Source of the DNA: a virus
Length of the DNA stretch: 22,413 nucleotides
Virus record (IMG/VR): IMGVR_UViG_3300028801_000026
Coordinates: 1 to 22,413 of that record
Direction: 5' to 3' (one strand)
A program made the position numbers and the translations under genes. The notes below the pieces were generated by a model, which ran no database searches, was not told the DNA's origin, and was given only the letters and a program-made list of their open reading frames with translations. Positions 7,283 to 19,389 of the stretch are shown piece after piece (the first letter of the stretch is position 1; every line of letters begins with the position of its first letter).

Positions 7283-9004
7283 ATGTGTGGTATTTGTGGC
7301 ATTATCGCGCGAAAAGGAATGGGCTTGTCCCACAAGCATCTTGAATTGTTCGAACAAATGCTTGTTATCAACACCATACGAGGTAAGGATGCCACTGGTG
7401 CAATGACCGGCTTCCGTAACAAAGAGGCCCGAGTTGTCAAGATCGGAACCAATCCGTTCAACCTATTCCGCACGGACGCATGGACCAAGTTTAAGAGCGA
7501 CGCTATCAATCGGGGTCGGTTTGTTATCGGCCACAACCGTGCCAAGACCATTGGGGAAGCCAGCAGTGAGAACGCCCACCCGTTTGTGGAGAATCACATC
7601 ATCTTGGTCCACAACGGCACCTTGATGAATCACACCAAGCTAACCACGGAGAAGGTTGAGGTGGACTCCCACGCCATTGCTCACGCGCTGGCTGTGGATA
7701 CCCCGGAGAACGTCATCCCTACCATTGATGGGGCTTTCGCTTTGGTGTGGTACAATACCGAGACGGAGCGGCTGTATGCTGTTCGCAACAAGGAACGTCC
7801 GTTGAGTCTGCTGTACACCGACGATGCCTACATGGTGTCCAGTGAGCCGTGGATCGCAGCAATGCCCACAAGCCGCAGCAATATCAAGATAGATGACATT
7901 CAAGACATTGAGCCAGGTAAGTTGTACGAGTTTGACTTCCTGGGTAACATCAAGATCACGCAAGTGGAACTCAAGCCGGAGAAAGTGTATAAAAATCAGG
8001 GTGTTTTCGTTGGCAACGCACGAGACGAGTGGGAAGGGTATGGGGAACCCCACTCTTTTTTCAGAACGGGGGAAAGGGAGACCCCCCCGGAAATCAAGAG
8101 TCTCCAACAAGCCCTGACGACTCCTTCGAAAGATTGTGTGATCGAGTCGGGAGGCGTGTGTCAGGCAAGTCTGAAGTCCATAGCGGGCTTAGCGAACAGG
8201 ACAAAATCGAAACAACAAGAGAACTCAACCACCCGGCCCGTCGCTCTCTTAACCGCGTCGGGGACGGATGGCCGTACACCCCAGCCAGCGAACTCTAGTG
8301 AGGAAGAAAAGGCAGAAGCTGCCCAAGGTCACATCAAGATCTCTGATCCTGAGTTCGTCCGTGGCGAGCCGCTGTTGATTAAGATTTGGGAGACGACTCA
8401 AACTCCCACGGGGCGGTATCGGTTTGCTGGTAAGGTGATGCAACCCGACAAGTCTATGGCAGACATCACCGGATTCCTGCCTCAAGCTGTAACCAATGCC
8501 TCTCTGCATCTGTGGATCAGTGAGAATCTTCAAGCGGATGTAATGTTTGTGACTGTTACTGTTGGTGGTCGATCAATCTTCGTGCACAAAGTACGTCGCG
8601 TGGAGTACGTGCCGGTCCACGCCACGGATGGGGGGATTCCCAAACCGCTGTGGGAGCATGTCCAAGCCAACTGTCACTGTGATAAGTGTGGCCGTGAAGT
8701 TGAAGAGTGGGAGCGTGTGTTTACGCGAGTCACCATGAAGTCCATCATTGGTTCTGGTGAACCAAAGAACACGCCCACCATTTTGTGTGCTGATTGTGTG
8801 TCAGATAAGGTACAAGGAGAATTCGGTGAAGGCTACAAAGCGCGCTACAACAATGCAAAGAAAGCCATTGAAAACCAACGGGCCAGTCAGGAACGCATCG
8901 CCCATCTTTCTCCTTCCGTACAAAATAGGGAGTCAGTCGGCGCGGAACCTGTCGGAAAGAATGGGTCAGTTATTGTCGTGCCGGGTGCCCAGACTGTACA
9001 TTGA
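7283..9004 (+). CDS. Class II glutamine amidotransferase fused to a zinc-ribbon domain
   Basis: Residues 1-220 form a class II (Ntn) glutamine amidotransferase. Cys2 is the N-terminal nucleophile (MCGICGI), Arg86 lies in GHNRAKTIG, Asn111-Gly112 in LVHNGTL and Asp128 in VDSH; these are the glutamine-binding and catalytic residues of the class. It would release ammonia from glutamine. Residues about 255-345 are a low-complexity polar linker. Residues 350-445 appear beta-rich, and residues 464-505 hold a zinc ribbon (Cys466/Cys469 and Cys502/Cys505). No synthetase domain is fused, so the ammonia acceptor is probably a neighbouring enzyme. The start is certain because Cys must follow Met, and AGGGG is 7 bases upstream. 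At 573 aa it is much longer than a stand-alone domain. Confidence 0.93.
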   Translation: MCGICGIIARKGMGLSHKHLELFEQMLVINTIRGKDATGAMTGFRNKEARVVKIGTNPFNLFRTDAWTKFKSDAINRGRFVIGHNRAKTIGEASSENAHPFVENHIILVHNGTLMNHTKLTTEKVEVDSHAIAHALAVDTPENVIPTIDGAFALVWYNTETERLYAVRNKERPLSLLYTDDAYMVSSEPWIAAMPTSRSNIKIDDIQDIEPGKLYEFDFLGNIKITQVELKPEKVYKNQGVFVGNARDEWEGYGEPHSFFRTGERETPPEIKSLQQALTTPSKDCVIESGGVCQASLKSIAGLANRTKSKQQENSTTRPVALLTASGTDGRTPQPANSSEEEKAEAAQGHIKISDPEFVRGEPLLIKIWETTQTPTGRYRFAGKVMQPDKSMADITGFLPQAVTNASLHLWISENLQADVMFVTVTVGGRSIFVHKVRRVEYVPVHATDGGIPKPLWEHVQANCHCDKCGREVEEWERVFTRVTMKSIIGSGEPKNTPTILCADCVSDKVQGEFGEGYKARYNNAKKAIENQRASQERIAHLSPSVQNRESVGAEPVGKNGSVIVVPGAQTVH

Positions 9005-15578: not shown

Positions 15579-15759
15579 GAAACAGGAAGTGGCGTTTGTG
15601 GTGGTACGTAGCTGTGATGGAAAAGATCAAACTCCTGTGGCTATCTTCATGAACTACGATGACGCAGTGGAGACGGCCGGTGCCCACACCCAGAAGTTTA
15701 TTGACGAGGGTATCAAGGGCTTCCGGTTTGACGTAGCTACGACTGCATTTTATGATTAA
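15571..15759 (+). CDS. Small hypothetical protein, 62 aa
   Basis: Function unknown. It is an alpha/beta mini-protein: strand (EVAFVVVRSCDG), strand (PVAIFMNYDD), helix (AVETAGAHTQKFIDEG) and strand (FRFDVATTAFYD), a pattern seen in many small phage proteins that present a sheet and one helix. The ATG overlaps the oxygenase end by 8 bases and the stop overlaps the polymerase start (TAATG). Confidence 0.72.
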   Translation: MTKKQEVAFVVVRSCDGKDQTPVAIFMNYDDAVETAGAHTQKFIDEGIKGFRFDVATTAFYD

Positions 15760-16898
15760 TGAGTGCACTATGCGTAGATGTAGAGACGAGCACACACAAC
15801 AATGGTGCGCCCTATGATAGACGAAACACAATTGTATGTTATAGCTGGGCAGATGAGACTTCTGCGGGAGCAAATAAGGTTACATCGGATAGCATCGAAA
15901 TCCTTAGAGACAAGATTCTCGGAGCTAGAGTTCTCATTGGGCACAACATTAAATTTGATATCCATTGGCTCAACAAAATTGGAATCGAAGTCCCAGAAAT
16001 CTGCCGAGTCCACGACACCCAAACCGGCGAGTTCATCTTAAGTAGACAAACGGAGAGGTATCCTTCGTTGGAGGATGCCCTCGTGCGGCATGATCTTGGA
16101 CATAAGTTAGACGTTGTTAAGACGGAGTATTGGGCTAAAGGAATCCAAACGGAAGATGTGCCGTGGCCTATCCTAGAGGAGTATGCTATCTGGGATGCCA
16201 AGATGACCTTGGCCTTGTATCATAAACAACAAGAACTGTTAACACAAAACCAGAAACGTTTGGTCAATCTCATGGGCATGGATCTATTGATCCTTCAGAC
16301 TATGGAGAAAAATGGTTTGGTGTACGACGAGGAGTTATGTCATAAACGTGCGGAGGAGATTAAGGGAGAGATACAACGCATCACCGAGAAGTTATCTAGC
16401 ATTTATCCTAACGTGCCTATTAACTTCGGTAGTGGGGATCAGCTATCTGCCTTTCTTTATGGTGGAACAATTGTGGAGGAAGGTAAGGAGCACATCGGCT
16501 TCTTCAAAAGCGGAGCACGAGTAGGGGAACCTAAATATAAGAACATCGAGATTCTCCACGAACTTCCCAGATTAGTGACACCCCTGCGTGGGTCGGAACT
16601 AAAGAAGGAGGGATTCTGGGCAACGAATCAAGATACCTTACTCAAACTCAAAGGCAACAAAGCTACCAAAGCAATCATTGAGTTGATCCAGCGTCAGGTG
16701 CGACTTGATACCCTATTGTCTAAAACATATGAAGGGATCATCAAAGTCAACCGAGAGCAGATGTGGGAACCAGGTGTACTCCACGGTCAACTGAATCAAT
16801 GCGTGGCCGTCAGCGGTCGCCTCAGTGCTTCTAAACCCAACCAGCAGAACTTTGATGGGGAAGCTGCTGATTTATTCGTGAGCAGATATAGTGACTAA
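15759..16898 (+). CDS. DNA polymerase, family A, N-terminal fragment (3'-5' exonuclease and thumb)
   Basis: The first half of a split PolA-type replicative polymerase. The proofreading exonuclease is intact: ExoI LCVDVET (Asp7, Glu9), ExoII IGHNIKFDIHW (Asn63, Asp67) and ExoIII EYAIWDAK (Tyr142, Asp146). The thumb region and start of the palm follow, ending with VSGRLSASKPNQQNF and then DLFVSRYSD directly before the stop. In an undivided enzyme the next residues would be the motif A strand, which is found instead at 17048. The 379-aa protein therefore lacks all polymerase catalytic residues and must work with the second fragment. It starts on the previous stop codon (TAATG). Confidence 0.93.
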   Translation: MSALCVDVETSTHNNGAPYDRRNTIVCYSWADETSAGANKVTSDSIEILRDKILGARVLIGHNIKFDIHWLNKIGIEVPEICRVHDTQTGEFILSRQTERYPSLEDALVRHDLGHKLDVVKTEYWAKGIQTEDVPWPILEEYAIWDAKMTLALYHKQQELLTQNQKRLVNLMGMDLLILQTMEKNGLVYDEELCHKRAEEIKGEIQRITEKLSSIYPNVPINFGSGDQLSAFLYGGTIVEEGKEHIGFFKSGARVGEPKYKNIEILHELPRLVTPLRGSELKKEGFWATNQDTLLKLKGNKATKAIIELIQRQVRLDTLLSKTYEGIIKVNREQMWEPGVLHGQLNQCVAVSGRLSASKPNQQNFDGEAADLFVSRYSD

Positions 16899-17064
16899 GC
16901 ACGTTGTCAACGAAGAAAAGATGTTGAGTAATATCTTTGTAAAGCTGGAGTATTCTGACACCTTCCAGGACTTCATAATGAACTTGAGTAAGGAAGAATA
17001 TGAGGCTTTGAGTCATGCTGTCAAGACACGGGATCTGAAGGAATCTAATGCTGGTAGCGTGTGA
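16891..17064 (+). CDS. 57-aa protein wedged between the polymerase halves
   Basis: Function unknown. A GTG start lies 8 bases inside the first polymerase fragment and the stop lies 17 bases inside the second, so the gene bridges the split exactly. The product is charged and appears mostly helical (EEKMLSNIFVKLE, TFQDFIMNLSKEEYEALSHA). No ribosome-binding site is strong, so termination-reinitiation is likely. I see no nuclease motif, and the gap (about 150 bases) is too short for a typical group I intron. The frame could also be fortuitous coding of inserted DNA. Confidence 0.5.
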   Translation: MTKHVVNEEKMLSNIFVKLEYSDTFQDFIMNLSKEEYEALSHAVKTRDLKESNAGSV

Positions 17065-17770
17065 TGCCAGCCAATTGGAGTGGCGCACAGCCTTGCAGCT
17101 TAGCCAAGACCCGGTTGGGATCAAGGAGATTGTTGAAGGCCAAGATCCGCACAGCCTCAACGAAAAAGCCTTTAACCTACCTAGTCGATTCATTGCAAAG
17201 ATCTACCTCTTCCGCACTATTTTCCGAGGGAGCGGCTACGCCTTTTCAGTGGATCCGGATTTCATGCACGTGTCCACCAGTCCCGCTTTCTGGGACGGAA
17301 TAGGAGAAAAATTCTATGGTAAATACAAAGTACTTGATGCGACACATAAGCACTGGGCGGAAGAGGTCATGGCTGGTCGACCGCTCGTCGGTCCGTCAGG
17401 ACGAGAGTGGACTATCAAAATCACGCGAGATCGCTACGGAGAACTCAAAGTACCATGGACAACTCTAACAAACTACCCAGTACAGGGGACAGGTGCCGAT
17501 GTAATGATGATCGCCCGTATCAGCTTCTCACGCCGGTTGAAGGCTCTTGGTATTCCGGTACTGTTGATTTCAACGGTCCACGATTCAATCGTAGTGGATT
17601 GCGAGAAGAAGTATGTGGACCAAGTTGTAAAGCTGTTCTACGAGGTGTTCGACGATCTGGTGAGCAACCTGAATCGGACGTTCAAGATTAACTGGACAGT
17701 GCCCTTAGCTTGTGAAGTGAAAGTCGGAATGAACACTCTTGATATGGTTAAAGTTGACAAGCCTTATTAA
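17048..17770 (+). CDS. DNA polymerase, family A, C-terminal fragment (palm and fingers)
   Basis: The second half of the split polymerase holds all catalytic motifs: motif A LVACDASQLEWR with Asp6, motif B RFIAKIYLFRTIFRGSGYAF with Arg47 and Lys51, and motif C STVHDSIVVD with His178 and Asp179. GPSGREW and NYPVQGTGADVMM are also typical of the family. The ATG at 17048 has AAGGA 5 bases upstream, so it is translated independently and begins immediately before motif A. The 240-aa product is intact. Together with the 379-aa fragment it gives the length of a compact phage PolA. The break falls in the palm, where the two chains must associate to form the active site. Confidence 0.94.
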   Translation: MLVACDASQLEWRTALQLSQDPVGIKEIVEGQDPHSLNEKAFNLPSRFIAKIYLFRTIFRGSGYAFSVDPDFMHVSTSPAFWDGIGEKFYGKYKVLDATHKHWAEEVMAGRPLVGPSGREWTIKITRDRYGELKVPWTTLTNYPVQGTGADVMMIARISFSRRLKALGIPVLLISTVHDSIVVDCEKKYVDQVVKLFYEVFDDLVSNLNRTFKINWTVPLACEVKVGMNTLDMVKVDKPY

Positions 17771-17807: not shown

Positions 17808-18398
17808 ATGAGTATTCAAGTTCAGGTTTTATCAGTAACCAGTGAAACGAAACCGACTGCCAAGGGTAGTTATCAGATGCTTGAAGTAGCATACAAGAAT
17901 CTGAGTGATGGTGGTAAGGTTGGTGCGAAGAAGCTTATGTCCTTCAGCAAGACCGAAGGGACTACGTTTAGGGTGCTGGCAGACGCAAAGGCGTTGGAAG
18001 TGTATGACGTTGAGTTGGTTAAAGGGGAGAAGTATTGGGAATGGACGACCGCAACTCGAAATCACGGCGGCGGTGCGACCTCGGGGAGCACAAGTGGGTC
18101 TGGTTCGACGACGGGGACATCGGCTCGCACTGGTACTGCAAGTTATGCCACTGCAAAGCCGACCTACGAAACTCCGGAGGAACGGGCGAAGAAGCAGATC
18201 TTTATTGTTCGCCAGTCAAGTCTGAGCAACGCGATTGAACTTCTCACAACGGGAGCAAAGGTTCCCCCTCACGTGGATGACATAATTGCAACTGCTGAGC
18301 GTTTTGAGGCATTTGTTTTTGGTAGTGGAGAAGCTGAAGACACCGCTCGTAAAGATGTGGGAAGTATCGAAGATATGGAAGATTCTATTCCTTATTGA
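17808..18398 (+). CDS. Single-stranded DNA-binding protein (phage OB-fold type)
   Basis: It binds and protects ssDNA at the replication fork. Residues 1-82 are a beta-rich OB-like domain (SIQVQVLSVTS, SYQMLEVAYKN, KKLMSF, YDVELV). Residues 84-118 form a Gly/Ser/Thr linker. Residues 120-172 hold the conserved PEERAKKQIFIVRQSSLS motif and helices, and the tail ends in an acidic, Tyr-terminated stretch (IEDMEDSIPY) like the protein-binding tip of other SSBs. This layout matches the ssDNA-binding proteins of LUZ24-type phages as I know them. It has its own promoter and AGGAGA 7 bases before the ATG. A second gene overlaps the linker in another frame. Confidence 0.85.
   Translation: MSIQVQVLSVTSETKPTAKGSYQMLEVAYKNLSDGGKVGAKKLMSFSKTEGTTFRVLADAKALEVYDVELVKGEKYWEWTTATRNHGGGATSGSTSGSGSTTGTSARTGTASYATAKPTYETPEERAKKQIFIVRQSSLSNAIELLTTGAKVPPHVDDIIATAERFEAFVFGSGEAEDTARKDVGSIEDMEDSIPY
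18041..18238 (+). CDS. Overprinted small zinc-finger protein within the ssDNA-binding protein gene, 65 aa
   Basis: An open frame lying wholly inside the ssDNA-binding protein gene, in another frame. Its product looks like a real protein rather than a shadow: GEHKWVWFDDGDIGSHWY leads into CKLCHC, giving a zinc-ribbon-like arrangement with His17, His30, Cys33, Cys36 and Cys38. Small phage proteins of the form His-x-Trp...Asp-Asp-Gly-Asp...Trp-Tyr-Cys-x-x-Cys are common. GGGGAGAAG lies just upstream, suiting the ATG (spacing 11) or a TTG at 18035 (spacing 5). The overlap covers the low-complexity linker of the host gene, where a second frame would be tolerated. Function unknown. Confidence 0.6.
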   Translation: MDDRNSKSRRRCDLGEHKWVWFDDGDIGSHWYCKLCHCKADLRNSGGTGEEADLYCSPVKSEQRD

Positions 18399-18684: not shown

Positions 18685-19389
18685 ATGCGAGCATTGGTGG
18701 ATGCTGATATTGTAGCGTTCTCCTGTGCCGCCTACAACAATGAGTACGGTTGGGACGCTGTGGTACGAGACATCGATGACCTAATGAATCGAATACTCAA
18801 CACCACGCGTGCCGACTCCTACCAATGTTTTATCACAGGCGACAACAACAAACGTTATGAAATCGATCCAGAATACAAAGCCAACAGGAAAGACAAAATA
18901 CCGCCAGTGTTCCGCGCCGAGGCTAATGCTTACATGGTCACTAAGTGGGGTGCCAGAGTCTCCGACGGTAATGAGGCTGACGATGAGATGGGCATCAATC
19001 AAAGCCAAGCGGAACCGCTAACCACGATCATCTGCTCCATAGACAAAGACCTTAAGCAGATCGCAGGTCGTCACTACAACTGGAGACGAGATGAGTTTGA
19101 TATGGTCGATCCTCTTGACGGACTACGCCTGTTTTATAGGCAGCTTCTCACTGGGGATACTAGTGATAATGTTCATGGTATCCGGGGTATTGGGCCGGTA
19201 AAAGCGGGTAAGTATATTAATGACGTAGAAGACGAATGGGACATGTTCGAGATAGTTCAAGCCCTATACAACGATGACGAACGACTTCTACGAAACGGTA
19301 AATTACTTTGGATAATGAAAAAAGACAATGACTGGTGGGAATTCCCGAAGGAAACAGAAGTTAGACTCGATCAAGCCATACAAGAGTAA
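18685..19389 (+). CDS. 5'-3' exonuclease (FEN/T7 gp6-like)
   Basis: A structure-specific nuclease that removes RNA primers and degrades duplex DNA from 5' ends. Acidic metal ligands are in place: Asp6/Asp8 in LVDADIVAF, Asp53, EADDEMG with Glu97, Asp99 and Asp100, SIDKDLK with Asp120/Asp122, and TGDTSDNVHGIRGIG with Asp158/Asp161 and the helix-3-turn-helix DNA-binding motif. YKANRKDK (64-71) is the usual arch-region Arg/Lys site. At 234 aa it is a compact member. No clear ribosome-binding site precedes the ATG, suggesting coupling to the upstream gene. The end overlaps endonuclease I by 62 bases. Confidence 0.92.
   Translation: MRALVDADIVAFSCAAYNNEYGWDAVVRDIDDLMNRILNTTRADSYQCFITGDNNKRYEIDPEYKANRKDKIPPVFRAEANAYMVTKWGARVSDGNEADDEMGINQSQAEPLTTIICSIDKDLKQIAGRHYNWRRDEFDMVDPLDGLRLFYRQLLTGDTSDNVHGIRGIGPVKAGKYINDVEDEWDMFEIVQALYNDDERLLRNGKLLWIMKKDNDWWEFPKETEVRLDQAIQE

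Follow-up and report, generated by a model that had tools for sequence, protein, structure and literature searches.

Rz1 is nested out of frame in Rz, and small phage proteins with CxxC zinc knuckles exist. Described systems close to the locus analysed here include the spanins (PMC6139136), the embedded sgl genes of ssRNA phages (PMC7693330) and the overprinted (de novo overlapping) viral genes (reviewed in PMC8227390). Few out-of-frame genes nested in the genes of dsDNA phages come to light, since they are excluded during annotation and their products have no homologues. The whole stretch of DNA analysed here (the window) comprises the 22,413 bases of an IMG/VR phage record, in which an open reading frame (ORF) in the -1 frame of an SSB-like gene is probably a real gene missed by annotation.

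The host gene (17808-18398, + strand) encodes an SSB-like protein of 196 residues, as defined by the ORF and by relatives with 30-49% identity. The protein is composed of an N-terminal domain, a Gly/Ser/Thr/Ala linker (~18045-18167), a conserved ETPEER..RQSS block and an acidic tail ending in DSIPY. The gene is flanked by a DNA polymerase encoded as two ORFs (15759-16898 and 17048-17770) and by an exonuclease (18685-19389). The gene order is the same in related phages, and the relatives with 30-49% identity also adjoin a split polA and an exonuclease in other phages. Family searches with the main-frame protein gave no significant or supporting match to an SSB/OB-fold family. The C-terminal tip of the protein (EDSIPY) is acidic, and an acidic IP[FY]-like tail is present in 38 of 64 SSB relatives. 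The gene position and the acidic tip together make an SSB role likely. A family-A DNA polymerase encoded as two ORFs is also found in the Zobellviridae phages MEP401 and MEP402 and in Alcaligenes phage vB_Af_QDWS535. Between the two halves of the split polymerase of the window lies a 57-aa ORF (16891-17064, + strand), whose relatives were found only in L043, L108, L021 and L026 among the loci searched; MEP401 and MEP402 have a small gene at the same polymerase junction.

The overprinted ORF occupies the -1 (+2) frame at 18041-18238 on the + strand, from an ATG at 18041 to a TGA at 18236-18238, and its 65 codons would encode the product MDDRNSKSRRRCDLGEHKWVWFDDGDIGSHWYCKLCHCKADLRNSGGTGEEADLYCSPVKSEQRD. 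The stretch GGGGAGAAG at 18024-18032, upstream of the start, begins with a Shine-Dalgarno-like GGGGAG (18024-18029, + strand). A TTG 5 nt after GGGGAG (18035-18037, + strand) is a possible alternative start that would give 67 codons. The initial annotation of a 65-codon frame, out of frame in the SSB-like gene and preceded by a putative ribosome-binding sequence, is thus borne out. The CxxCxC site that it described is also present, as CKLCHC at ~18137-18154. A Cys/His-rich segment of the alternative product, CDLGEHKWVWFDDGDIGSHWYCKLCHCKA (18074-18160, + strand), lies over the SSB linker; CxxC motifs are in excess in the clade of related phages described below. However, the frame does not coincide exactly with the linker as claimed: at the 3' end, the last ~24 codons overrun it and lie over the conserved block ETPEERAKKQIFIVRQSS. 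The other sense frame is also open in this region and is longer (17905-18225, 106 aa), so the mere openness of the -1 frame means little.

In the window alone, the -1 frame is unremarkable. With the SSB amino acids and the phage codon usage fixed, 2-11% of synonymous recodings keep the frame open (a probability of 0.02-0.11, dependent on the span and the model), and about 0.4% keep it open with a CxxC. The codon usage of the window across the -1 ORF is exactly that predicted from the SSB only (z of -0.04). Within the span, a stop could form at only 13 of 65 codon junctions. No stop in the -1 frame can be completed by a Gly, Ser (TCN), Thr or Ala codon, and an Ala or Gly codon following a T-ending codon gives Cys or Trp in that frame. 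Thus, SSB-type linkers readily cast an open, Cys/Trp-rich shadow frame, and the ORF could be a chance product of such a linker with an accidental zinc site. Many relatives with a closed frame are also Cys-rich, which favours chance. The only other IMG/VR matches to the pattern DGxIGxHW[..]C, in L016 and L017, were rejected because their frames are rich in stops and a different frame of that DNA is the open one, and they too favour chance. Near-identical contigs have no change in the -1 ORF region, the close copies of the window being identical across it, and the next relatives are less than 50% identical in the SSB. Significance arises only from the comparison with relatives, and an early reading of the ORF as chance was dropped once an excess of open frames appeared at the level of the clade.

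The comparison set contained 94 non-redundant SSB relatives, comprising a clade of 8 and 86 others. The clade consists of the window and seven IMG/VR phages (L021, L026, L030, L033, L043, L046 and L108). These seven loci are the closest relatives of the window in polA1, polA2, the exonuclease and the endonuclease, wherever the sequence of the gene was available and with few exceptions, and in the SSB tree six of them group on a single branch. The definition of the clade is independent of the -1 frame, and the grouping is not by the trait alone. L108, fetched after the pattern had been noticed, fits the open-frame pattern. A polA2 scan for further members of the clade found none.

Comparison of the clade linkers showed that the -1 frame is open in all eight phages, against 0.96 expected, and contains 0 stops, against 15.4 expected, although the phages are only distantly related. 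The joint probability is about 1e-8 if the members are independent, and the product of the per-member probabilities is about 2e-4 for the four most divergent members (the window, L021, L033 and L043). The clade linkers show no nucleotide similarity beyond that of shuffled codons (median p 0.45), indicating that their codon choices are not simply inherited and that the members are approximately independent. The null codon model holds in the -1 frame of the other 86 relatives, of which 2 have an open frame (1.74 expected), with 285 linker stops (275 expected). Stops in closely related phages were initially named as what would speak against the gene; none occur in the nearest clade, whereas nearly all of the more distant relatives have them in the -1 frame. 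Two loci outside the clade, L098 (3216-3443) and L024 (1300-1470), which rank 9th and 7th in polA2 similarity, have an ssb -1 frame that is open through the linker and Cys-rich. The -1 frame may predate the clade, or these two cases may be due to chance.

The same 40-column scan was applied to eight other groups of the SSB family as a calibration. Apart from the 3' end of exo, the lowest control-group value for the -1 frame is 2e-4 among the values shown. The 3' end of exo gave 3e-8, 7e-8 and 1e-5. Because exo and the next gene overlap there in annotated relatives, this exo/endo signal looks like a built-in positive control, the overlap being traced in annotated relatives rather than in each group. 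Statistics of the +1 frame, which is low in the majority of control clades, were left out for that reason. With the control families calibrated in this way, the second frame of ssb is open across the clade beyond chance.

The depletion in the clade is specific to stops. Third-position T at sites that would form TAA, TAG or TGA in the -1 frame is observed 0 times in the linker (15.7 expected) and 0 times in the block (7.1 expected). Elsewhere third-position T is found 31 times before GC or GT, giving Cys (18.1 expected), and 14 times before GG, giving Trp (8.7 expected). Avoidance of TpA was rejected as the cause, with T before AC at 9 against 11.7 expected. Stop-forming junctions are near expectation upstream of the linker (33 vs. 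35.1) and past the ORF (22 vs. 19.9) and absent from the linker and block (0 vs. 22.8), showing that the stop depletion coincides with the ORF. The other alternative frames are not depleted of stops, except for one antisense frame that shares the T/A junction. The overlapped block has diverged at synonymous sites to 0.63-0.64 of expectation, compared with about 0.8 elsewhere in the gene, a signal that may partly reflect inherited codons.

A scan of 19 genes of the clade showed that ssb (1.8e-8) and polA2 (1.0e-8) stand out; the gene at 7283-9004 comes next (4e-7), and most other genes are unremarkable. The -1 frame of polA2 has 0 stops in the clade, against 18.4 expected, around window codons 151-191 (367 vs. 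327.5 in the rest of the family), and a -1 ORF of at least 65 codons, counted from stop to stop, is present in 8 of 8 clade phages. The second -1-frame ORF of the window (17455-17691, + strand), inside polA2 (17048-17770), starts at a CCATGG (Pro-Trp) codon pair, and its product would begin with MDNSNKLPSTGDRCRCNDD. In the gene at 7283-9004 (+ strand), a clade-wide -1 stop gap (0 vs. 14.6) is located at alignment columns ~338-378; third-position T is generally low there (26/37.8), and composition may thus explain the gap. The polA2 signal either marks a further hidden gene or warns of a gap in the codon null, and it is the main reason that confidence in the ssb overprinted gene is not higher. 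These depletions in polA2 and, more weakly, in the gene at 7283-9004 are what would be expected if something other than a protein product kept stops out of the -1 frame, for instance selection on local codon context or codon choices inherited within the clade. However, the ssb depletion is specific to stops and to this frame, the linker has no shortage of T at its other positions, most of the remaining genes of the clade phages are calibrated and the linkers are not shared by descent; a non-coding cause appears highly improbable. At the other extreme, several hidden -1-frame genes might exist in the clade, including at least one within ssb and another within the 3' polymerase gene (17455-17691), each specifying a small protein that contains Cys. 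The product of the ssb one would then have a first half that is replaced almost entirely from phage to phage, although the open frame and the cysteine pairs persist. We regard this wider proposal as speculative and quite unlikely.

Given an open frame, the clade products contain more cysteines than expected (31 vs. 20.6, P 0.002), and synonymous recoding conditional on the open frame showed that Ala codons alone are insufficient as the source of this excess. CxxC motifs are likewise in excess in the clade (9 vs. 2.2, P<0.001) and not in the other 86 relatives (27 vs. 29.5), although one control group of partly close relatives also has 7 vs. 1.75. A CxxC is present in 6 of the 8 linker halves of the alternative products, which is above expectation, with varying spacing; the linker half of L033 has no Cys. 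The mutual likeness of the linker halves does not exceed that of synonymous recodings (median p 0.53). A search for direct repeats as the source of the Cys motif found none. L108 (ERCFFCGGPTHKGYCIKPCGDEGW) and L043 (CSRCGGTGFEIGAGLTSCIDC) provide two-knuckle-like examples, and the alternative products resemble small two-knuckle metal-binding proteins.

Searches for stand-alone homologues of the 65-aa product, the check proposed with the initial annotation, found none in phage and plasmid records, Pfam, PHROGs or NCBIfam. For the 65/67-aa product, no homologues beyond the near-identical contigs were found in phages, plasmids, IMG/VR and GTDB contigs. The alternative products of the clade likewise have no homologues in Pfam, PHROGs and NCBIfam, zinc-binding families included. 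A PDB sequence search gave chance-level matches only (E 0.55-1.6), and a match to Gordonia phage Flapper (E 2) was rejected as lying on the wrong strand of an annotated gene. An overlooked overprinted zinc-finger gene was proposed initially; the overprinting is supported by the open frames, the stop avoidance, the Cys pairs and the GGGG, whereas the zinc finger, with no family match, is plausible but unproven.

The putative start lies at the codon preceding a conserved Trp of the SSB, where GAA TGG gives ATG in the window and GAT TGG gives TTG in six relatives. In L021, GAC TGG gives CTG, and a TTG lies two codons upstream. The clade shows no significant enrichment of non-CTG starts. GGGG is enriched in the Shine-Dalgarno window of the putative start (6/8 in the clade vs. 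3/80 in the others, Fisher 4e-6), yet the start codon itself varies; the GGGG of the window comes from a different codon than that of the relatives. The ORF is in the -1 frame relative to the SSB and opens right at the linker, where the GGGG is located, as would also be seen with a programmed -1 frameshift that fuses the SSB DNA-binding domain to a Cys-rich tail without the acidic tip. However, a slip at the GGGG in L026 and L108 would read GTA TAA and terminate at once, and inspection by eye of clade sequences from the upstream stop to the linker revealed no XXXYYYZ heptamer. The TAA between the GGGG and the start codon in these two phages makes a frameshift less likely than internal initiation, and we consider it very unlikely overall.

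Frame conservation, stop-specific codon avoidance, the CxxC excess and the Shine-Dalgarno-like enrichment, all computed here, point to a small gene overprinted in the -1 frame of the phage ssb in one clade, with an internal start and a fast-evolving, Cys-rich and possibly zinc-binding product, a reading to which we assign a probability of about 0.6. A chance ORF fails to predict the eight open frames, the absence of T only at the stop-forming junctions, the CxxC excess or the Shine-Dalgarno-like enrichment, and is considered unlikely, if still credible. For the overprinted gene we infer translation, metal binding and a role in replication or host takeover. Its mRNA would be the ssb message, on which ribosomes probably initiate internally at an NTG made with the third base of the codon before the conserved Trp, aided by the upstream GGGG or GGGGAG. 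The predicted products are Cys-rich and 65-78 aa long, with the first half over the hypervariable SSB linker and the second half over the conserved SSB block. Judging from the Cys pairs, the product may be a small, zinc-knuckle-like metal-binding module that would be made together with the SSB during DNA replication. A function alongside the SSB, in replication or host takeover, is conjectured from location and co-expression. The comparative test, calibrated on sister clades, singles out one candidate in uncultivated phages with clear, testable predictions. If the gene is real, it shows that new genes can originate and rapidly diversify over a flexible protein linker.

Comparisons with known systems show both likenesses and differences. 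Like the small CxxC zinc-knuckle phage proteins, the predicted product would have two-Cys knuckles in a protein of 60-80 aa; unlike them, it matches no such family in Pfam, PHROGs and NCBIfam. As with Rz1 in Rz and the embedded sgl genes, a short phage gene would be nested out of frame in a longer one, and the sgl genes likewise differ widely in sequence from phage to phage and escape annotation. In contrast to the nested lysis genes, the ssb -1 product has no signal peptide or transmembrane segment evident by eye; its ORF lies in the replication region and the product is Cys-rich. A likeness may also be drawn to the overprinted viral genes (PMC8227390), with which it shares a second same-strand ORF in an existing gene, restriction to a lineage, a product without homologues and a location over a segment of the older protein that is under little constraint. 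It differs from these in being known here from sequence alone, in having a phage SSB-like gene as its host, and in a product whose first half is hypervariable but keeps its Cys pairs.
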